64,000 bases of DNA from Ensifer adhaerens (lineage in GTDB: Bacteria; Pseudomonadota; Alphaproteobacteria; Rhizobiales; Rhizobiaceae): the NCBI RefSeq assembly GCF_001270265.1, contig NZ_LGAP01000001.1, positions 558,001 through 622,000 of the forward strand. Reading direction: 5' to 3'. The translations under genes were made by a program, and so were the position numbers. Under the pieces are notes generated by a model, which saw only the letters and a program-made list of their open reading frames with translations, was not told where the DNA came from and ran no database searches. Below, piece by piece: positions 11,757 through 20,646 of this stretch (position 1 is its first letter; each line of letters opens with the position of its first letter).

Positions 11757-12019
11757 ATGACGCAAACGTGAGAGTGTGTTGCGGACACTGTCAATCAGCC
11801 GCAATGCCGCCGTCCGTTTTGTGGCGCCTTCGGATCTCAATGGATGTGATTGAAGTGACCTGCGGTTGCTACTTTGCATTGGCCTTGTGGTAGGCACCAA
11901 TGCTTAGGCAAAAATAACAAACGTCAACGGCTAGAATAAAAACAGACGCTCGTCCGTTTCACTTTCAAATGATATTGACGAAGAGCCAACTGCTTGTCAG
12001 TCTTCTCTAAAATAAGCCG
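11757..12019. other. Divergent intergenic region before the caspase/cytochrome operon
   Basis: No gene is seen here. The region contains a 7 bp inverted repeat GCATTGG...CCAATGC at 11876-11903 and becomes AT-rich from about 11905 to 12015, where the operon promoter is expected. I could not place a convincing -35/-10 pair. Confidence 0.4.
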
Positions 12020-13306
12020 TTGGCAATCGGCGTTGAGGGGCGCGGACGTAAGGTGGGAGCGTTTCTAGTCTGGTCGCTGGTCGTGTTCGCAGGGTTGCTT
12101 GCCGTACCGGCCGTCAGCCACACGAATGCAACGACGACGTTCTCACTGATGGCCTCGTCCATGGCTTTTGTCTGCATGGCGATCGCACAGTTCATGGCGG
12201 CGCGACCGCCCTTTATCGAGCCCCTGTTTGGCGGGCTCGATCGTGTTTATCACTTTCATCGAAAGATCGGCATTTCGGTGCTGGGTCTGATCCTCGTGCA
12301 TTATTTTCTGACGCCTGATTTCAAGGGGCTGTCGTTGACGAGTGGGCTGAACCAGCTTGCCGCTTCCGCCGGAAAGTACGCCTTCTATGGGCTGAGCGCG
12401 CTGCTTGTTCTCAGCATCGTCAAGATCATACCGAAGACGAAGATCGAGATTCCCTATCACCTGTGGCGCTATACCCATCGCTTCATCGGATTGCTGTTCG
12501 TACTCGTCGCGTTCCACCAGATGTTCATCAAGCGCCCTTATGACGGGACGGCCCTGCTTGCAGTCTACCTCAACGCTTTCGCCGCACTCGGCATTCTAAG
12601 CTACGCCTATACCCAGCTTCTGCCGTGGCTGAGGACGCGCAGCTATGAGGTATTCGAAGTCACCCGGCACGATGGCGCGACCATTATCTCGGCCCGACCG
12701 ATCGGACGAGCGCTGAAGGTAAAGCCCGGCCAATTCGGTTTCCTGCGTGTCCTGAAAAACGGATTGCGCGAGCCGCACCCCTTCACCATCGCCGGCATCG
12801 AGGCCGATGGCGTTGTGCGCTTCGCCATCAAGCCGCTCGGCGACTACACGCGGGCCCTGCGAGAGAATATCGCCATAGGGGACCGATTGAAGCTCGAGGG
12901 CGGATATGGCCAGTTCAATCATCGCCGTGGCGCCAAGAAGCAGATTTGGCTTGCCGGTGGTATCGGGGTCACGCCTTTCCTGGCGATGGCGCGTCATTTG
13001 AGGGGGGACGAGGGGCAGGACATCCACATGGTGTACTGCGTGCGCGACCGAAATGAGGCGATTGGCCTGGAAACCTTCGAAGCGCAGGCAGCAAAACTCG
13101 GCAATTTCAGTTTTGTGTTGCACGATTCGGCTAAGGACGGGCGGTTGGACGCAGCGAAGCTTGCGGCCGGCAGCGCGATTGATCCAGGCGATGCGGATCT
13201 TTGGTTTTGCGGGCCGCCACCCTTGCGCGAGGCAATCGTCAAAGGCTTGAAAGAGCTGGGAAAGAAGCCGCGCCGGGTAGAATTCGAACAGTTTCAGTTT
13301 CGGTAA
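12020..13306 (+). CDS. Ferric-reductase/NADPH-oxidase-like membrane flavocytochrome
   Basis: A 428-residue membrane protein with six predicted transmembrane helices (roughly residues 12-200) followed by cytoplasmic FAD and NAD(P) domains. The bis-heme signature of the ferric reductase/NOX superfamily is visible. One helix carries HRKIGISVLGLILVH (His pair 14 apart) and a later one HRFIGLLFVLVAFH (13 apart). FAD motif HPFTIAG, nucleotide motif LAGGIGVTPFL and the C-terminal WFCGPPP complete the fold. It should move electrons from NAD(P)H across the inner membrane. The TTG start at 12020 has no good Shine-Dalgarno; a GTG at 12053 is an alternative. It is the first gene of a tight operon reaching 20586. 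Confidence 0.88.
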   Translation: MAIGVEGRGRKVGAFLVWSLVVFAGLLAVPAVSHTNATTTFSLMASSMAFVCMAIAQFMAARPPFIEPLFGGLDRVYHFHRKIGISVLGLILVHYFLTPDFKGLSLTSGLNQLAASAGKYAFYGLSALLVLSIVKIIPKTKIEIPYHLWRYTHRFIGLLFVLVAFHQMFIKRPYDGTALLAVYLNAFAALGILSYAYTQLLPWLRTRSYEVFEVTRHDGATIISARPIGRALKVKPGQFGFLRVLKNGLREPHPFTIAGIEADGVVRFAIKPLGDYTRALRENIAIGDRLKLEGGYGQFNHRRGAKKQIWLAGGIGVTPFLAMARHLRGDEGQDIHMVYCVRDRNEAIGLETFEAQAAKLGNFSFVLHDSAKDGRLDAAKLAAGSAIDPGDADLWFCGPPPLREAIVKGLKELGKKPRRVEFEQFQFR

Positions 13307-13351
13307 ACAGACGTTTTAATGACGATTTTTTTGGTTGAGGGAGCAGGGCTC

Positions 13352-16300
13352 ATGCGCAGCCAGCGTGATATGCGAGAGAATGTCTCGCGGAGTGCCGGTA
13401 TCCATAGGAAATCTATCATAGCAGTGGCTGCGGCTTTTGCCGCCGCGATGCTCTGTCCCGGGACGGCTTCGGCGCGCGATGCTTTCGCCGACGATGCTTT
13501 CTCGACCTACAAGGCGAATGCCGAGAACGGCAAGTACATGTTCAACGCTGCCGGCTGTGGCGCGTGCCATGGATCCGGTGACAATACCGAACTGCTGTCC
13601 GGCGGCATGGAGATGAACACCGCCATCGGAACCTTTTACGCGCCGAACATCTCGCCCCACGCCAGCGGCATCGGTGGCTGGAGTAATGCGCAGTTCCTCA
13701 ACGCGGTGATGGTTGGTCTCGATCGCGATGGCAACAACCTCTATCCGGTCATGCCCTATACATCCTATGGCGGCATGAAGCCGGAGGACGTGCTTGATAT
13801 CAAAGCCTATGTCGAGACCTTGCCGCAGTCCGACGCCGCCTCGAAGGAACATGAGATCGCTTTCCCCTTTAGTCGTCGGACGACGATAACTCTATGGAAA
13901 CGCACCCATTTCACCGTGCCGGCCTATCAGCCGCGCGAAGAGACCCAAATGGAGCGCGGCCGTTATCTGGTCGAAAATGTCGGCGGCTGCGGCGACTGTC
14001 ACACACCACGCACGACGACCTACGGCCTCGACCTTGAAAGAGCCTATCAGGGCGAGAAGGGGCTGACTGGTGCGGTCGCACCCGATATCGGCAAGGCGAA
14101 GATGGCCGGGCTCGCCGCGCCGGAGGTGTTTACCACGGGCCTCATCGGCGAAGGCAAGAAGCTGTCCGGCGCGCCGATCAGCGACCCCGTTATGCGGCGG
14201 ATTGCCAAGGGACTTTCGGCGCTCAGCGATGATGATCGCCGCGCGATCTATGCCTTCCTGTCCGATCGCGAGGTCAAGGCGCCGGCGCCGGTGGCGCAGT
14301 CTGTGACCGCCGTGTGCAAAGAGAATACCGCCTCTGCGGCATTGTCCGGCGACAATGCGGCGCTCGCCCAACAGGCGGATGCCTTCATCGGCAAGTATTG
14401 CCGCAATTGCCATGGCCCGGGTGAAAGCAATCAAGGCAGCTATCCCGCCGGCGAACTTGCTTCGATCGCAGCCGATGCCAACTTTGTCACGCCGGGCGAT
14501 GCTGCCAAATCGCGCCTTTTCACCTCGGTTACCAGCGGCCGCATGCCGCTCGGCAAGCGCCCGACGGACGAAGAGGTCGAGGTGCTCGAAGGCTGGATCA
14601 ATTCTCTCAGCGAAAAGAACCTGCCGCAGACGGCGGCCTCCAAGCCTGATCGATCCCGGCCGATGCTGTCTTACGATCAGTTTGTCGAAGCGGCGCTCAA
14701 GGACATCTCCAGGGTGAGCGCACTCGATCGCCCGCACATGCGGTATTTTTCCTATCGCGACCAATACAACGGCATGATGGGTTGCGAAGACGAGGCCACG
14801 TTCATGAAACGCATGGACGTTCTGGCGGGCGGCTTCAAGAAGCTGCTGAACTCGCTCTCCTCTGGACCGAAGCTGGTCTTGCCGGCGGAGGTGGACGGCA
14901 CCAACGGTCTGCTCGTGCGTGTCGATCTGCGTGAGTTGCAATGGGAGAGCGCCGACTACGACTTCCTGATCAAGCGCTATTTCTATGGCGTCGATCCGAA
15001 GAGCGACGCGTCGCTTCAGGCGCTTTCCAACGAAACGAATACGCAGTTGCCGATCATGCGGATTGACTGGTTCATGAGCAATGGCGCCCGTCCGGAGATC
15101 TACAACAGGCTGATGAGGTTGCCGGCGCATATCCGCGAGCTGGAAACGCGCTTCAAGATCGATGTGGACGACAACATCAGGCGGCGCAAGGTTCTGCGTG
15201 CCGGCTTTGCGGACGGCTCGTCGGGCGTCTCTGATCACAATCGTATGCTCGAGCGGCACGACATGCCGTTTGGCGGTTACTACTGGAAGTCCTACGACTT
15301 CGGCGGCGACGTCGGCAAACAGGTGCTGAAGCGTTTCCCGCACGGACCCAAGGAGTTGGGCGCGCTCGATGCTGGCCTGGTACCGTTCGAGCATGATGGC
15401 GGCGAGATGATTTTCTCGCTGCCCAACGGCCTGCAGGGTTACTACCTGTCGACGGCGGCGGGCAAGCAGCTCGATATCGGGCCGACGACCATCGTTTCGT
15501 TCCGCGAACGGCCGATCGGCAAGGGGGTGGAAATCGTCAACGCCCGCTCCTGCTTCGACTGTCACGCAGACGGTATTCTTTCGAAACGCGACCAGTTGCG
15601 CGACCATATCGCCACCTCGACACTGTTCAGCAAGGACCAGCAGGATGTTCTGTTGGCCATGTATGTGAAACAGGAGGAGCTGGATGAGGCCTATAGCAAG
15701 GATCGCAAACGCTTCGTCGAGGCTCTGCACCAACTCGGCGTGACAGAGCCGACACCGGATGGCGGCCTCCAGAGCAAGCACGCACCCGGCGACGCCGAGA
15801 TCGTCACCTATTTTGCCGATAAATACGAAGACGAGCTCGACTTCGATGCTCTTGCCGCCGAGTTCGACATGACGCCGCAAGAGTTTTCCGATGCGATCAA
15901 GCGGGTGACGGATACGAATGTCCTGCGTCTCGGGCTCGATTGGGTGACGACGCTGGAGGCCGGCAACACCGTGCCGCGCAATGAGGTCGAGCAGCAATAT
16001 GCCTTGCTGCTGGAGCCGCTCGTCCAGCGCCGCCCGCTCGACACCAGCACGATCGTTGTTGCCGGAAGCGAGCAGCAGCCCGAGGCAAAGCCTCAATCCG
16101 TGGCCGCCGCCGTGCCCGATTATCGCAAGCAGGAGGTCGCTGGCGGCAACAAGCTTGCACTCGCATTGAAGGTGCCGACGACGACGGCCAAGGTCGGTGA
16201 TGAGCTTTCGTTCGAGCTCAGCGTCAATCAGGCCTGCGAACTGCAGATCCTCTATGTCGAGGAGAACGGTAATGTCGAAGTTATCCCGGATGAGATGATC

Positions 16301-16579
16301 GGCAATACGACCTTACAGCCAGGAGAAAGCAGGGTGATCCCGCAACCTGGGACCGGCACGCTGACCTTCGATACGGCAGCGCCCGCCGAAACGATGCTGG
16401 CCTTCTGCCGCGTCGGGGGCCTTGCCGATCAGAGGCTGACAGTCGAAAAGGCACGGGAATATGTGGCTGCGTCGAAGCTGCCGCCGACGCGCGGGCTGGC
16501 GGTCAATCTCGCCAAAAAGGCGCAGGCCGACAACGGCGCCAGCAGCGTGCAGATGGTAACTTTCGAGATCAAGGACTAG
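13352..16579 (+). CDS. Exported tetraheme c-type cytochrome-like protein with C-terminal DUF4384-like domain
   Basis: A 1075-residue protein with an N-terminal signal (hydrophobic run SIIAVAAAFAAAMLCPGTASA). It has four CxxCH heme motifs: CGACH (bases 13556-13570), CGDCH (13988-14002), CRNCH (14399-14413) and CFDCH (15551-15565). The first 320 residues resemble diheme cytochromes of alcohol/gluconate dehydrogenases (NISPHASGIGGWS, LYPVMPYTSYGGM). A long middle part around the fourth heme is unfamiliar. The C-terminal 140 residues look like the DUF4384 beta domain also found on the caspases downstream. The ATG at 13352 is preferred over 13319 because GAGGGAG precedes it. Predicted periplasmic. 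Substrate and partner unknown. Confidence 0.82.
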   Translation: MRSQRDMRENVSRSAGIHRKSIIAVAAAFAAAMLCPGTASARDAFADDAFSTYKANAENGKYMFNAAGCGACHGSGDNTELLSGGMEMNTAIGTFYAPNISPHASGIGGWSNAQFLNAVMVGLDRDGNNLYPVMPYTSYGGMKPEDVLDIKAYVETLPQSDAASKEHEIAFPFSRRTTITLWKRTHFTVPAYQPREETQMERGRYLVENVGGCGDCHTPRTTTYGLDLERAYQGEKGLTGAVAPDIGKAKMAGLAAPEVFTTGLIGEGKKLSGAPISDPVMRRIAKGLSALSDDDRRAIYAFLSDREVKAPAPVAQSVTAVCKENTASAALSGDNAALAQQADAFIGKYCRNCHGPGESNQGSYPAGELASIAADANFVTPGDAAKSRLFTSVTSGRMPLGKRPTDEEVEVLEGWINSLSEKNLPQTAASKPDRSRPMLSYDQFVEAALKDISRVSALDRPHMRYFSYRDQYNGMMGCEDEATFMKRMDVLAGGFKKLLNSLSSGPKLVLPAEVDGTNGLLVRVDLRELQWESADYDFLIKRYFYGVDPKSDASLQALSNETNTQLPIMRIDWFMSNGARPEIYNRLMRLPAHIRELETRFKIDVDDNIRRRKVLRAGFADGSSGVSDHNRMLERHDMPFGGYYWKSYDFGGDVGKQVLKRFPHGPKELGALDAGLVPFEHDGGEMIFSLPNGLQGYYLSTAAGKQLDIGPTTIVSFRERPIGKGVEIVNARSCFDCHADGILSKRDQLRDHIATSTLFSKDQQDVLLAMYVKQEELDEAYSKDRKRFVEALHQLGVTEPTPDGGLQSKHAPGDAEIVTYFADKYEDELDFDALAAEFDMTPQEFSDAIKRVTDTNVLRLGLDWVTTLEAGNTVPRNEVEQQYALLLEPLVQRRPLDTSTIVVAGSEQQPEAKPQSVAAAVPDYRKQEVAGGNKLALALKVPTTTAKVGDELSFELSVNQACELQILYVEENGNVEVIPDEMIGNTTLQPGESRVIPQPGTGTLTFDTAAPAETMLAFCRVGGLADQRLTVEKAREYVAASKLPPTRGLAVNLAKKAQADNGASSVQMVTFEIKD

Positions 16580-16588
16580 CCGCCACAG

Positions 16589-17491
16589 ATGAGGAATCGG
16601 GTGAAACGACTGATCTTTGCTTCCGCGACGCTGTTGCCGTTGGCGTATCCCGCTAGCGCCTGCGATGCGCTGACGAAAGCCTCGGAGGCCCTCAACCGCA
16701 GCGATGAGGCCGGTGCGCGGGCGGCTGCCATGGCGGAACGAACCATGGCGTGCTCGAGCACAGAGGCAGCGCTTACCCGGCGTGTCGCGGCGCTTGCGAC
16801 CTTCAACCGTATCGCCAACGCTGTCGGTGGCGGCGCCAGGCTCGATACCTTTGACAGCGAGCTGAAAGCGGTGCGGGATGACGTCGGAGGACCATGGCAA
16901 ATCCTCGACGCGCTCGGCGACATCGACCGGCAGCGAAAGGACTACGCAAGTGCGGCGACATATTACCAGCAGGCGCTGGAAGATGCCGCCAACGAGGAAC
17001 TGACCCCCGCGTGGATGGCGCCGGACAAAGCCTACATTCTGCGCCTCGACCGGCTGGCCTCCGAGATGCGGCTTGCCGCAGCGAAGCCTGTAAAGCTTGC
17101 GATGCGCGGCGCCTGCAAATTCTCCTATCGTGGCGTATCGATCAGGAAGAAGGCGACACCCGTCCGCTATGTCTTCGGAACGGCGGAGTTCACGCCCGAA
17201 GGACTGCAGTCGGCAAAGGATCTTTTCGAGTGCCTGAAATCGGCAAAGCCGGAAGCGATCACCTTGATCGGACACACCGATCCGGTGGGCAGCGCTGAGG
17301 CGAACAAGAAACTCTCGTTGGCACGCGCCGAAGCACTCGCGAACTATCTCGTCGATGCCGGTTACAGCGGCACATGGACGACTGTTGGCAAAGGCGAGGA
17401 GGAGCCGTTCAAGCCGGATGATCCGAGCGCCTATGACGAAGCGATGCTGCATCAATTGGATCGTCGCGTCGAAGTTGATGTGGAGAAATAG
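16589..17491 (+). CDS. Exported OmpA-domain protein with TPR-like region
   Basis: A 300-residue protein with a signal peptide ending near PASA and Cys at the next position; the lipobox is poor, so lipidation is uncertain. Residues about 100-135 (LGDIDRQRKDYASAATYYQQAL) look like a TPR unit. The last 110 residues form an OmpA-type peptidoglycan-binding domain with LIGHTDPVGS and LSLARAEALANYLVDAGY. It would tie the complex to the cell wall in the periplasm. It starts 9 bases after the tetraheme gene and its stop directly abuts the next start codon. Confidence 0.85.
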   Translation: MRNRVKRLIFASATLLPLAYPASACDALTKASEALNRSDEAGARAAAMAERTMACSSTEAALTRRVAALATFNRIANAVGGGARLDTFDSELKAVRDDVGGPWQILDALGDIDRQRKDYASAATYYQQALEDAANEELTPAWMAPDKAYILRLDRLASEMRLAAAKPVKLAMRGACKFSYRGVSIRKKATPVRYVFGTAEFTPEGLQSAKDLFECLKSAKPEAITLIGHTDPVGSAEANKKLSLARAEALANYLVDAGYSGTWTTVGKGEEEPFKPDDPSAYDEAMLHQLDRRVEVDVEK

Positions 17492-19048
17492 GTGCTGCTG
17501 CGCAAGATCTTGATTTCGTGCGTTTTCTTGGGATTGCCGGTTCTGCCCGCGATGGCGACGACATCCGCGCTCGTGGTCGGCGTCGATATCTACCCGCATG
17601 AAGTGAGCCTTGATGGGGCGGTCAAGGATGCACGCGACGTTGCTCAGGCGTTGAAGAAGGCGGGTGTCGGTGCCATCCGCGAATTCATCAACGAGCAGGC
17701 GACGAAGGACGCGATCCGAGCCGCCTGGCTGGAGCTTGTCGGTGCCGCAACGAGCGGCGACACGATTATTCTCACCTATGCCGGTCACGGCGCCCAGATG
17801 CCGGAACTGGTCGCCGGCAGCGAACCGGATGGGCTTGACGAGTTTCTTGAGCTGCCGGGATTCGACCGTAGTCGCGCGGAAGAAACGGCAAAGGAGATCA
17901 TCGTCGACAACGAGCTGAATGCCTGGTTCGCGGAGGCTGAGGCCAAGGGCGTCCAGGTGCTGTTTGTTTCCGACAGCTGCTATTCCGGTGGCATGAACCG
18001 GTCGATCTCGGGCAAGACGCGGCTCGCGCCGACCGTGCGGGCGCAATTGCCGCCGCCGTCGCAAGAGGCGGTTTCCGGTGCGGCGGTCAAGGATGCGGAT
18101 CTGTCACAAGTGACCATCCTTGCTGCATCGCTTGAGAGCCAACCGACGCCTGAGGTTGTGATTGAGGGCGTGCCGCGGGGGGCACTCAGTTGGAGTTTTT
18201 CCCGCGCGCTCGAGGGGGCTGCCGATCGTGATGGCGACGGCCTGATTTCGCGCGTCGAGCTCGAAGACTATGTCTTTTCCAACGTCAAGCTCCAGTCCGA
18301 GGCGCTGCAGGTGCCGAACTTTACGCCGCAGGTGCCGCGGTCGGACAAGGAAATTGTCCTCTCGTTGCCCAGAAGCGCGACGCTGGCGGCAGACAATGGC
18401 ACAGCAGCGTCCGGCCGGCCGTCAAAGCTGAAACCGGCCCGAGAAATGGGCTGGGCGGGCAAGCTGGCGCTGAGCGTCGAAGGCACCGCGCCAAAGCTCG
18501 AGAATGTCGGCGGCACTGGCGTTCCCTATCGATGGGATGCCACGAGCGGCACATTCTACACGCCGAACGGCGACGTCGCGGGTGAACATGTCGCCGCCGA
18601 CATGGTGCAGGGTGTGGTCGACAAATTCATCCTTCTCGATTTCCTGAAGGTGCTTGCCGCACAGAACCCTGGCAAAGTCGCGCTGACGCCGGTCAAGGAC
18701 ATCTATTCATCAGGGGACCGCCTCAACTTCGACGCGCCTCAGTCCGGATACGCGAACATGCTGGTGTTCAATCTCGCCAATACCGGAGAAATCCAGCTTC
18801 TCGATGCCCAGATCGAGGGCTCGGGCAGCCATGTGTTCAAACTCAGGGACCTGGAGGTGGTCAAACCTTTCGGCGCAGATCATCTTGTCGTCGTCTCGAC
18901 GAACGCCCCGATCGATGCGGTGGCTGCGGCCCTGTCCAGCCCGGGCGTCGACGCATTCAAGCTTCTGCGCCTCCTCGAAGAGCGGCTGGACGGCACCGAC
19001 AGTGCTGTCGCCATCCAACCGCTCTATACGCGGGAGCGCGGGCAATGA
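17492..19048 (+). CDS. Exported caspase-family (metacaspase-like) protease 1
   Basis: A 518-residue protein with a signal peptide (cleavage near PAMA, residue 22) and a C14 caspase fold. The catalytic dyad is present: His99 in TYAGHGAQ and Cys163 in SDSCYSGG. Between them is an acidic EPDGLDEF segment like that of metacaspases. After the caspase fold comes a complete EF-hand-like loop, DRDGDGLISRVE at 245-256. The C-terminal part (about 390-500) looks like a DUF4384-type domain. The GTG start directly abuts the OmpA stop; the next gene overlaps its stop by 4 bases. Predicted Arg/Lys-specific, calcium-dependent endopeptidase in the periplasm by family analogy only. Confidence 0.83.
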   Translation: MLLRKILISCVFLGLPVLPAMATTSALVVGVDIYPHEVSLDGAVKDARDVAQALKKAGVGAIREFINEQATKDAIRAAWLELVGAATSGDTIILTYAGHGAQMPELVAGSEPDGLDEFLELPGFDRSRAEETAKEIIVDNELNAWFAEAEAKGVQVLFVSDSCYSGGMNRSISGKTRLAPTVRAQLPPPSQEAVSGAAVKDADLSQVTILAASLESQPTPEVVIEGVPRGALSWSFSRALEGAADRDGDGLISRVELEDYVFSNVKLQSEALQVPNFTPQVPRSDKEIVLSLPRSATLAADNGTAASGRPSKLKPAREMGWAGKLALSVEGTAPKLENVGGTGVPYRWDATSGTFYTPNGDVAGEHVAADMVQGVVDKFILLDFLKVLAAQNPGKVALTPVKDIYSSGDRLNFDAPQSGYANMLVFNLANTGEIQLLDAQIEGSGSHVFKLRDLEVVKPFGADHLVVVSTNAPIDAVAAALSSPGVDAFKLLRLLEERLDGTDSAVAIQPLYTRERGQ

Positions 19049-20586
19049 GGGGTGACGTTATAGCGGCCTGGCGTTTCCTGCTGCCGCTTATGGCGCTGGG
19101 GCTCTGTTCTCCCGTCTTGGCCGCGGATCGAGCCTTGCTCATCGGGATAGGGAATTATCAGAACCTTCCGCCAAAGCTGTTTCTGCACGGACCGAAAAAC
19201 GATCTTGTTGCCATGAAAGGGCTACTCACCGAGACACTCGGTTTCGATCGTTCAACAATCCGGGTCCTGGAGGACGGGCAGGCGACGCGCGCGGCCATCC
19301 TGGCTTCGATCGAGGAATGGCTGGTCGCCGGCACACAACCTGGCGACCGCGCCTATCTCTATTATTCCGGTCACGGCGTTCAGGTCACGGATGAGGATGG
19401 CGACGAGGACGACGGCATGGATGAGGCGCTGGCGCCCTTCGACCTTGTCGCCAAGGCCAAGGCCAAGGCCAAGGCCAAGGATTGGGAAGGTGCCGTCACC
19501 GATGACGAACTCGATGCCATCCTCGAGCGCTTGAAGGGCAGGGCGGTAACCCTGGTGATCGACGCCTGTCACTCCGGTCCGATCTCACGGTCGCTGTCGG
19601 ACGAGGTATCCGCCGGCATCGACGGCGCGCGCTTCCTGCCGCGCCCGGAAGCGAAACCGGTGGAGCAGGCGCTGACGCGCGGCCTGCGGATCGATCTCGG
19701 TGTCGTCGATAAGCCCAGCCGCGCCAACGAGAGCGGCATCGTCGCCTGGAGTGCCAGCGCGCCCTATCAGGTCGCATGGGACGATTTACGACTGCCCATC
19801 GAAAGCCGTCACGGTGTCTTTACCGCGGCCTATGTCGCCGGGCAGACGGGGGCGGCGGCGGACGCCAACGCCAACGGCCTGACCAGCAACGCCGAACTTT
19901 TCGAATACGTGACGGCGCAATCTACCGCCTACTGCGCCTCGCAGGAGAAATGCGACACGCTCGACCCGCAACTGGAGACGAAGGCGCAGAACCTCGGTGC
20001 CAGTGCGGTCATTCCAGCACAGGCGGGTGCCGAGGCGAAGGCGCGGTACGAGCCCGCTATAGGCGATAATATCGGGCAGGCAAGCTATCAGGATGCGAAT
20101 GCGGTCGATGCAGTCGGCGATATCGTCGGCAAAATGGACGCTGGTGACGTAACCATTGGCATCGACCGGCCAACGTCGATGAAGACCGGTGACGTGTTCA
20201 AGCTGACGGTCGCGAGCAAGGTTGCCGGTAGCCTCATCCTGCTGGACGTCAACACGGCAGGCGCTGCGACCCAGATCTTCCCCAACGAGTTCGCACAGAA
20301 GATTACGCCGCTCAGCGCCAATGTACCGTTGACGTTGCCGGATGAGTATTACGGCTTCGACTTTGAAGCCTCAGGCAAAGGCGAGAGTGCGTTCGTTGCC
20401 CTGGTGGTCAGCGACGCCGTCGATCTGGCTGACGTCGCGCCGAAGACACGGGGCCTCAAGCTTGAACTCAGCGCGCGTGAGACTTTGAGCGAAATAGTCT
20501 CGCGGTTGCAGAAAACCTGGACTGATGAGCTGGACAAACGCGGCATCCGGTGGTCGGTCGGCACCCTGCGCTACCACGTCGAATGA
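19045..20586 (+). CDS. Exported caspase-family (metacaspase-like) protease 2
   Basis: A 513-residue second caspase-family protein with a signal peptide (cleavage near PVLA, residue 26). It is closer to type I metacaspases than its neighbour. His110 is in YYSGHGVQ, followed by the acidic run DEDGDEDDGMDEALAPFD, and Cys175 is in IDACHSGPISRS. A degenerate EF-hand-like loop (DANANGLTSNAE, 273-284) sits at the same place as in protease 1. The C-terminus, around 370-480, is DUF4384-like. A (GCCAAG)5 tract encodes five Ala-Lys pairs in the loop after the acidic motif. Its start overlaps the previous stop (ATGA). It is the last gene of the operon. Confidence 0.85.
   Translation: MRGDVIAAWRFLLPLMALGLCSPVLAADRALLIGIGNYQNLPPKLFLHGPKNDLVAMKGLLTETLGFDRSTIRVLEDGQATRAAILASIEEWLVAGTQPGDRAYLYYSGHGVQVTDEDGDEDDGMDEALAPFDLVAKAKAKAKAKDWEGAVTDDELDAILERLKGRAVTLVIDACHSGPISRSLSDEVSAGIDGARFLPRPEAKPVEQALTRGLRIDLGVVDKPSRANESGIVAWSASAPYQVAWDDLRLPIESRHGVFTAAYVAGQTGAAADANANGLTSNAELFEYVTAQSTAYCASQEKCDTLDPQLETKAQNLGASAVIPAQAGAEAKARYEPAIGDNIGQASYQDANAVDAVGDIVGKMDAGDVTIGIDRPTSMKTGDVFKLTVASKVAGSLILLDVNTAGAATQIFPNEFAQKITPLSANVPLTLPDEYYGFDFEASGKGESAFVALVVSDAVDLADVAPKTRGLKLELSARETLSEIVSRLQKTWTDELDKRGIRWSVGTLRYHVE
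19450..19479 (+). repeat. Hexanucleotide tandem repeat (GCCAAG)x5 inside a caspase gene
   Basis: Five exact in-frame copies of GCCAAG encode Ala-Lys pairs (residues 136-145 of protease 2), between the acidic metacaspase motif and the catalytic Cys. Copy-number change would keep the frame and alter a basic surface loop. Confidence 0.9.
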
Positions 20587-20613: not shown

Positions 20614-20646
20614 AAAGCCCGCCTGAAAAAGCGGGCTTTCTTTTTT
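20614..20646. terminator. Bidirectional terminator between the caspase operon and aapP
   Basis: A 9 bp stem AAAGCCCGC / GCGGGCTTT with a CTGAAAAA loop, then C and six T on the plus strand. On the minus strand the stem also runs into T residues, so it can end both convergent transcripts. Confidence 0.9.

Follow-up and report, generated by a model that had tools for sequence, protein, structure and literature searches.

I found a five-gene operon in Ensifer adhaerens whose predicted products are a membrane flavocytochrome of the NADPH oxidase (NOX) type, an exported tetraheme cytochrome c, an exported protein with an OmpA domain, and two exported proteins of the caspase family. It lies in the window, a stretch of 64,000 nt that was analysed as a whole (NZ_LGAP01000001.1, positions 558,001-622,000 of the forward strand, assembly GCF_001270265.1), and all coordinates count from the window start. 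The five open reading frames (ORFs) are named G1-G5, and the N- and C-terminal halves of G2 are called G2N and G2C. It was shown by sequence comparison that G1-G5 constitute a gene cluster conserved in several genera. The data suggest that many soil and marine alphaproteobacteria carry a NOX relative, a tetraheme cytochrome, an anchor, and exported caspases as one cluster, which may be an envelope system linking electron transfer and proteolysis. As far as I could find, this is a real, conserved, and undescribed system, built of known families and with a partly known output cassette. According to the ORF listing, the five ORFs lie on one strand. The features are as follows.

11975-12003, + strand: conserved upstream box, probable promoter, TTGACGA ... 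CTTG(C/T)CAGTCT (TTGACG, 17-base spacer, CAGTCT)
12020-13306, + strand: G1, NOX-like flavocytochrome b (Pfam Ferric_reduct/FAD/NAD); likely start GTG 12053
13319-16579, + strand: G2, exported tetraheme cytochrome c (cytochrome c domains and DUF4384 by Pfam); likely start ATG 13352
16589-17491, + strand: G3, exported protein with an OmpA domain and a weak TPR match (Pfam)
17492-19048, + strand: G4, exported caspase-family protease (Pfam Peptidase_C14), dyad His99-Cys163, Ig-like C-terminal region
19045-20586, + strand: G5, exported caspase-family protein with DUF4384 (Pfam Peptidase_C14 and DUF4384), dyad intact in the window
20614-20639, + strand: terminator-like stem-loop, a 9-pair stem then a T-run, 3′ of the operon

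Conservation and inheritance of the gene cluster

Is the order of the five genes found elsewhere? A search for it had been proposed in the preliminary description of this DNA, and the genes do co-occur. Named genomes were scanned with the C-terminal part of G2, and the best 79 distinct loci of 526 relatives were analysed, each taken with flanks of up to 10 kb on both sides of the match; counts over 79 therefore describe close relatives. The order G1-G2-G3-G4-G5 was found in 48 of the 79 loci. It is exact in 41, while seven (L080, L081, L087, L093, L100, L109, and L126) show small defects or additions, namely split ORFs, a contig edge, an overlapping-ORF-start artefact, a broken G5, or an extra caspase. 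The 48 loci are titled Ensifer, Sinorhizobium, Rhizobium, Pararhizobium, Shinella, Metarhizobium, Cucumibacter, or Rhizobiales. Nine more loci (L127-L129 and L132-L137) have (G1-)G2-OmpA-G4, some with additional caspases; eight of these are titled Rhodobacteraceae or genera placed there, and L128 just Alphaproteobacteria. Two loci (L130 and L131) have G1-G2-caspase, and the remaining 20 have other arrangements, with a caspase in 10 of them. Altogether, a caspase is present in 69 of the 79 loci.

A family sample was picked by G2 alone, and a full G2 was found in 18 of 199 genomes, the window's included. G2 has a caspase match no more than 5 kb away in 14 of the 17 others; 12 of these matches are of the G4 type, full-length or split, and two are weak. 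Two of the three genomes with no caspase near G2 are estimated to be 66-68% complete, and the third has its G2 broken over contig ends. This sample starts from G2 only, yet the caspase call relies on the G4 profile, and more distant caspases may escape it. Chance adjacency was considered and rejected: with five caspase-domain genes in the 7.46 Mb of the window's genome, a given gene would have a caspase within 5 kb in about 1% of cases, against 14/17 in the family sample. Since some caspase at E≤1e-5 was found in 30 of the 30 genomes searched, the presence of a caspase in a genome is uninformative, and it is the linkage that counts as evidence. The window genome itself has three further caspase-domain genes outside the operon (contigs C38, C1, and C7).

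The surroundings of the operon are shared in part. The operon lies between fpr and aapP (aapP at 62% identity or more) in 29 of the 79 loci, whose titles are Ensifer, Sinorhizobium, Rhizobium, Pararhizobium, or Rhizobiales; of the 13 Shinella loci, eight have the fpr-GntR side in common. Records titled chromosome hold three of the 79 loci with the full order (L081, L123, and L126). One plasmid record has G2 at E≤1e-40, and the phage matches at E≤1e-10 are partial only. A mobile island in Rhizobiaceae is thus disfavoured by the shared fpr/aapP flanks and the chromosome records. At the aap site of other family members, the operon is absent in 10 of 11 evaluable cases and present in one, a twelfth contig ending beside aapP; G971, one of the ten, has the operon elsewhere in its genome. 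The distribution is therefore patchy, by loss, movement, or transfer.

All five genes are under gene-wide purifying selection. The ratios of nonsynonymous to synonymous rates (dN/dS) against the window are 0.04-0.36 for every gene in 11 loci, which are rough values with some dS above 1. They are lowest for G1 and G2 in most comparisons, and the means over five Ensifer-type loci are 0.073-0.087 for G1 and G2 versus 0.12-0.15 for G3-G5.

Gene products and operon layout

G1 had been described as a membrane oxidoreductase, and by Pfam and motif criteria it is predicted to be a NOX-type membrane flavocytochrome. Its best solved-structure matches are 8qt6 (E 8.5e-41) and 8qq7 (E 1.8e-40); 8qq7, 8qq5, and 8qq1 are given as SpNOX in the available text of PMC11031084. 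The sequence criteria for bacterial NOX, in the available text of PMC5676040, are two His-X12/14-His pairs in transmembrane helices, separated by 20 residues or more, plus NOX motifs. G1 passes those motif filters. Its His pairs H80-X13-H94 and H153-X12-H166 are both present in 77 of 77 sequences, and five segments pass a simple hydropathy test for transmembrane helices. HPFTI lies at 253-257 and GIGVTP at 314-319; HPFT is kept in 77/77 sequences and G314, G316, T318, and P319 each in 76/77. By these criteria, G1 is classed as a membrane flavocytochrome with NOX sequence hallmarks.

G2 has a composite plan: a triheme dehydrogenase-subunit fold at residues 68-415, a stretch of about 450-735 with no Pfam match, a fourth CXXCH at 745, and a C-terminal DUF4384. 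Every one of the 35 aligned fused homologues (the window counted) has all four CXXCH motifs, and the signal peptide was recognised by eye, so that G2 would indeed be the exported tetraheme cytochrome-like protein that had been proposed. M409 and H692 are invariant in the same alignment, and one may guess that they are heme ligands. The first 334 residues match the cytochrome subunit of fructose dehydrogenase (E 3e-37). In the AlphaFold model of G2 (mean pLDDT 79.6, pTM 0.53), residues 68-358 align with that subunit at Z 22.6 and rmsd 2.4 over 246 residues, and the match to the related alcohol dehydrogenase subunit (Z 22.1, rmsd 3.0, 256 residues) extends to residue 415. The middle stretch of about 450-735 is modelled with high confidence. 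It has no Pfam family match in the window protein, and among 18 G2 members only isolated weak Pfam matches (E 0.01-0.1, positions not displayed) could fall in it. Foldseek and VIA-align searches with the whole model gave rows taken up by the triheme and Ig-like parts, not by the middle domain. A stretch of an uncultured 595 kb phage record (LR756511.1, 483824-484447; unannotated) is 29% identical to G2 residues 568-795 (E 3e-12).

G3 carries an OmpA domain of the peptidoglycan-binding family (Pfam E 3e-14), in agreement with the earlier prediction; its TPR_2 match is under the cut-off. The caspase and Ig-like C-terminal regions of G4 were modelled with mean pLDDT 78.2 and pTM 0.67, and the fold matches GSU0716, metacaspases, and MALT1. 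The alignment of G4 with metacaspases places the dyad and, only weakly, a p10-like GALS stretch (i-Evalue about 1). The Asp two residues ahead of the catalytic Cys is invariant; I take this to be the S1-pocket residue of metacaspases. G4 would probably cut after Arg or Lys.

The two caspases differ in the conservation of their catalytic dyads. The dyad of G4 is kept in 91 of 92 evaluable homologues, whereas that of G5 is intact in 58 of 69, one or both residues being changed in 11, of which two are trypsin fusions. The difference (1/92 versus 11/69) has a p of 4e-4, with the 11 losses not all independent. These counts omit rows gapped at the dyad column, which are two of 94 for G4 (L126 and L165) and one of 70 for G5 (L100). 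L165 has Ser at the dyad Cys column of G4. In G5, Gln replaces His in L060, the closest of the 79 loci by G2; Arg replaces His in L068 and Gly replaces Cys in L063, and more distant loci have QS, ES, or LG in place of the dyad. In L100 (Ensifer sesbaniae, 14692-15515), G5 is without most of its catalytic domain and split over two frames, by real decay or an assembly error. Thus, the claim of two caspase proteases stood insofar as both dyads are intact in the window and that of G4 almost everywhere; the pair is not equivalent, and "two active proteases" is unsafe as a rule because the G5 dyad is lost in 11/69, close relatives among them. A GCCAAG repeat at 19450-19479, in the caspase domain of G5, encodes a Lys-Ala run that is shorter in L060 and absent in L062-L064.

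The five genes probably form a single operon, as had been stated; this is borne out by the layout and by the linkage recurring in many genera. The direction, the spacings, and the trailing terminator given earlier were reproduced exactly. The spacers are 12 bases between G1 and G2 (45 if G2 begins at ATG 13352), 9 between G2 and G3, 0 between G3 and G4, and -4 between G4 and G5. For G1, the start GTG 12053 is likelier than TTG 12020 because of homologue starts and a GAGG-like stretch. ATG 13352 is favoured for G2 because of a Shine-Dalgarno-like GGGAG seen by eye, and the export signals of G2-G5 were identified by eye as well. A terminator scan of the window gave 12 sites versus 10.7 in shuffled sequence; the stem-loop at 20614-20639 is the sole 9-pair site and lies where the operon and a convergent ABC-transporter gene meet.

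Of 18 related loci aligned to the window, 15 have the TTGACG box followed after 17 bases by CAGTCT or CAGCAT; the box is missing in L090 and L109 and cut off in L067, and in the Shinella rows CAGCAT replaces CAGTCT. Ten-base words from the box were counted in as many as 22 of 77 upstream sequences and are surpassed only by those of CGAATAAAGC; a CGAATAAAGC-like element upstream of the TTGACG box has the commonest 10-base word (31/77). The form TTGACGA ... CTTG(C/T)CAG is common to Ensifer, Rhizobium, Pararhizobium, and Shinella loci. None of the consensus boxes for FNR/FixK, EcfG, RpoH, RirA, Irr, Fur/Mur, OxyR-like regulators, NsrR, and ArcA is shared among the 77 upstream sequences. The sole OxyR-like match upstream of operon loci is in L132, and a loose TTG-N-CAA pattern in 29/77 carries no weight as evidence.

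Modularity and possible function

Farther from the window, the genes are more loosely linked. G2C at E≤1e-20 was found in four of 398 genomes of a phylum draw and in two of 385 of a class draw, the window's genome included. In an order draw of 249 genomes, again with the window's, the G4 type occurs in 34, G2C (E≤1e-40) in 33, and both in 15 (Fisher p 1e-6, relatedness ignored); G2C is present in 15 of the 17 genomes whose G4 scores at least 500 bits. The G4 and G5 models derive from loci in which linkage to G2C was already known, which biases this correlation toward linkage. Fifteen of the 33 G2C genomes have a caspase nearby: 11 a linked G4/G5 pair (window included), three another caspase, and one a weak match. 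The ten non-window genomes with the linked pair belong to six other families of the same order, where G3 and cytochrome genes are linked as well, and one of them (L035) has all five genes in the same order. The G2C/caspase neighbourhood of G150 is split by a contig break. In the loci with a split cytochrome (L048, L049, L051, L054, and L057), G2N and G2C still flank G4-G5. L145, of the same class and another order, has G1-G2-G3-G4.

What does the cluster do? I tentatively favour an envelope system, mostly chromosomal, in which electron transfer is coupled to proteolysis, a reading that I hold to be possible rather than probable. From the gene linkage, domain content, and residue conservation observed above, I infer the following steps. 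G1 would accept electrons from cytosolic NAD(P)H and, via FAD and two b hemes, deliver them on the periplasmic side to G2, or to O2 near G2. G2, G4, and G5, which end in DUF4384 or Ig-like domains, would assemble on the wall-bound G3. G4 would be the protease, and G5 a regulatory, sometimes dead partner that acts non-catalytically or part-time. When G4 is active would depend on the redox or ligand state of G2, and chiefly on that of the fourth heme beside the unclassified domain. The output would be limited proteolysis of envelope proteins under redox stress or a change of electron acceptor, and cell killing would be one possible outcome. Redox gating and cell death are put forward as hypotheses.

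Several observations weigh against this coupling. In the order draw, 17 of the 33 G2C genomes show no caspase nearby, although two were not fetched and others are at contig ends. Eight of the 17 belong to a single genus, in which G2 neighbours an OmpA-like gene of an unrelated kind, five are of one family (three fetched), and four are others (G036, G037, G115, and G144), three of which have the G4/G5 pair on another contig; G036 and G113 have a second G2 locus without a caspase (L171 and L172). Even among the best 79 loci, 10 have G1-G2 with no caspase found, four of them on contigs shorter than 15 kb. A motif search for caspases in these ten found none but overlooked weak ones that the profile caught (L108 and others), which makes it a poor control. 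Of the ten non-window genomes of the order draw that have the linked pair, nine showed no G1; there, the cytochrome is two genes, or no N-part lies nearby. G3-G4-G5 is also found without G1-G2: 18 of the 19 G4-positive order-draw genomes lacking G2C were fetched, and nine have G3-G4-G5 (one with a weak G5), four G3-G4, and five G4 without G3. The pairwise distances of G2N, G2C, G3, G4, and G5 do correlate (rho 0.84-0.92, 0/999 permutations, 16 loci thinned from 54). This counts for the coupled system, as joint inheritance predicts it, but it is also expected from shared species descent.

The linkage is thus near-constant close to the window and loose farther off, which is evidence against a strict functional unit. 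Both halves occur apart, so that each can do without its counterpart, and the data do not require redox gating. The genes may be described as two modules that are often but not always joined, G3-G4-G5 as a protease cassette and G1-G2 as an electron chain. The five-gene module of the preliminary description therefore holds as a conserved cluster but not as an indivisible one.

G1-G2 are also found near other caspases with peptidoglycan-binding, SH3, or WD40 domains. In Ancylobacter rudongensis (L115, 12016-14655), a WD40-caspase protein with a NADase-translocation-type domain comes directly after G1-G2. Seven genomes of one genus (L037-L043) have a full-length G2 relative with no G1 or caspase found nearby, and with an OmpA-like neighbour in six. 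In Azospirillum lipoferum 4B (L189), a G4-like caspase lies near the type VI secretion genes tssL and tssM.

Two other explanations may be considered first. The redox enzyme may have priority: G1-G2 would be a chain acting in electron transfer, as a peroxidase, or as an acceptor reductase, and the role of the caspases would be limited to maturing or quality-controlling the cytochrome or its partners. I consider this somewhat unlikely, though the recount of 17/33 led me to shift a small part of my confidence to it from the coupled system. Besides these 17 genomes, it is favoured by the 10/79 loci with G1-G2 and no caspase nearby, by the N-half of G2, whose sequence and fold are both those of an electron-transfer subunit of a dehydrogenase, and by the mean dN/dS among the five Ensifer-type loci, which is lowest for G1 and G2. 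However, G3-G4-G5 persists without G1-G2 and may join a trypsin, a serpin, and a kinase, which is unlike a mere maturation factor.

Alternatively, G3-G4-G5 may be an envelope protease cassette that acts alone, joined by G1-G2 merely for co-regulation under the same condition. Both halves occur apart, and a similar cassette is coupled to trypsin, serpin, and kinase in Rhizobium, as this explanation would have it. On the other hand, DUF4384 is common to G2 and G5, the split G2N and G2C still flank G4-G5, and the linkage in the family sample is far above chance. I regard it as unlikely.

It was also assessed whether the operon could be a dedicated cell-death or anti-phage system, with G4 as the executioner and G5 as a decoy or regulator. 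The caspase fold and a partner often without the dyad would suit such a role, and NOX and cytochrome c are reminiscent, by analogy, of eukaryotic death pathways. The PADLOC caspase model matches both G4 and G5, but the other PADLOC matches are weak and on G2 and G3 only (TPR and ZorB on G3, Csa3 on G2). The same flanks in 29/79 loci, the single plasmid record, the merely partial phage matches, and the gene-wide purifying selection also argue against it, and I consider it very unlikely. Compared with these explanations, the envelope system that couples electron transfer to proteolysis remains my tentative choice.

Comparison with known systems

Bacterial caspase homologues are widespread and mostly without a known role, and no bacterial system of any kind is known to me in which exported caspases are combined with a NOX and a multiheme cytochrome c. 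Here, an exported caspase is found in a fixed and testable biochemical setting that also comprises an anchor, a four-heme protein, a likely source of electrons, and a partner that has in many cases become a pseudo-enzyme. This setting occurs in cultured genera such as Ensifer and Shinella. Thus, the roles of exported bacterial caspases, and links between cytochrome c and caspases outside eukaryotes, would become open to experiment.

The preliminary description had stated that no described system has this composition. For the composition as a whole this stood: no description of a NOX-cytochrome-caspase operon was found in the open-access literature, including the available text of PMC3501461, PMC6426788, PMC5982838, and PMC7159879, with subscription journals and supplements outside the scope. 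The word cytochrome is absent from the main text of PMC3501461 and PMC6426788. The statement was too broad for a sister operon, since a protease / protease-inhibitor metacaspase operon in Rhizobium was noted in 2012 (Asplund-Samuelsson et al., PMC3501461, as far as its available text goes). From its one-line description there, that operon type is probably the same as the sister cassette described next. On a stricter view, the whole operon of the window could also be classified as a variant of bacterial caspase operons.

This sister cassette is found in L157 (3586-13375), of the same family as the window, which encodes a DUF4384-OmpA protein, a G4-type caspase, a trypsin-caspase-DUF4384 fusion, a serpin, and a protein kinase; L190, a plasmid of R. 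etli Mim1, has the same gene set by annotation. Judging from the L157 domains and the R. etli annotation, the Rhizobium operon has its DUF4384(-OmpA) protein, G4-type caspase, and caspase-DUF4384 in the same order as the window. It differs in that the second caspase is fused to trypsin and followed by the serpin and kinase genes, with no NOX or cytochrome. Conversely, Pfam found no trypsin, serpin, or kinase domain in the five proteins of the window.

In the available text of PMC6426788, alphaproteobacterial pseudo-orthocaspases are described, with the His-Cys dyad lost in caspase-family proteins of Rhizobiales and a clade with trypsin and DUF4384. The loss resembles that in G5; here, the losses hit one member of a linked pair. 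Compared with bacterial NADPH oxidases (SpNOX; available text of PMC5676040 and PMC11031084), G1 is alike in domain order, bis-His spacing, HPFT, and GIGVTP. A C-terminal F-X-F-K/R is present in both, the end of SpNOX being taken from primers printed in PMC11031084, but G1 has a multiheme cytochrome c and exported caspases as gene partners. G2 resembles the triheme subunits of membrane-bound fructose, alcohol, and aldehyde dehydrogenases by sequence and by the fold of residues 68-415 (Z about 22), but it continues into the unclassified domain, the fourth heme motif, and DUF4384. No gene for a flavin or quinoprotein alcohol, sugar, or aldehyde dehydrogenase lies beside G2, whose neighbours are G1 and G3.

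Alphaproteobacteria are a group close to the mitochondrial ancestor. The operon and the mitochondrial apoptosis of cytochrome c and caspases are alike only in their parts, namely a cytochrome c, an oxidase of the kind that makes reactive oxygen species, and a caspase-fold protease. The compartment is another one, the cytochrome is a four-heme protein, and no adaptor was seen; homology of the pathways is not implied. It seems improbable that the NOX oxidase and the multiheme cytochrome c directly control a periplasmic caspase with a pseudo-caspase partner, the redox state of the cytochrome c switching the caspase. If true, such a redox-switched caspase would be a bacterial analogue of cytochrome-c-controlled caspase activation.

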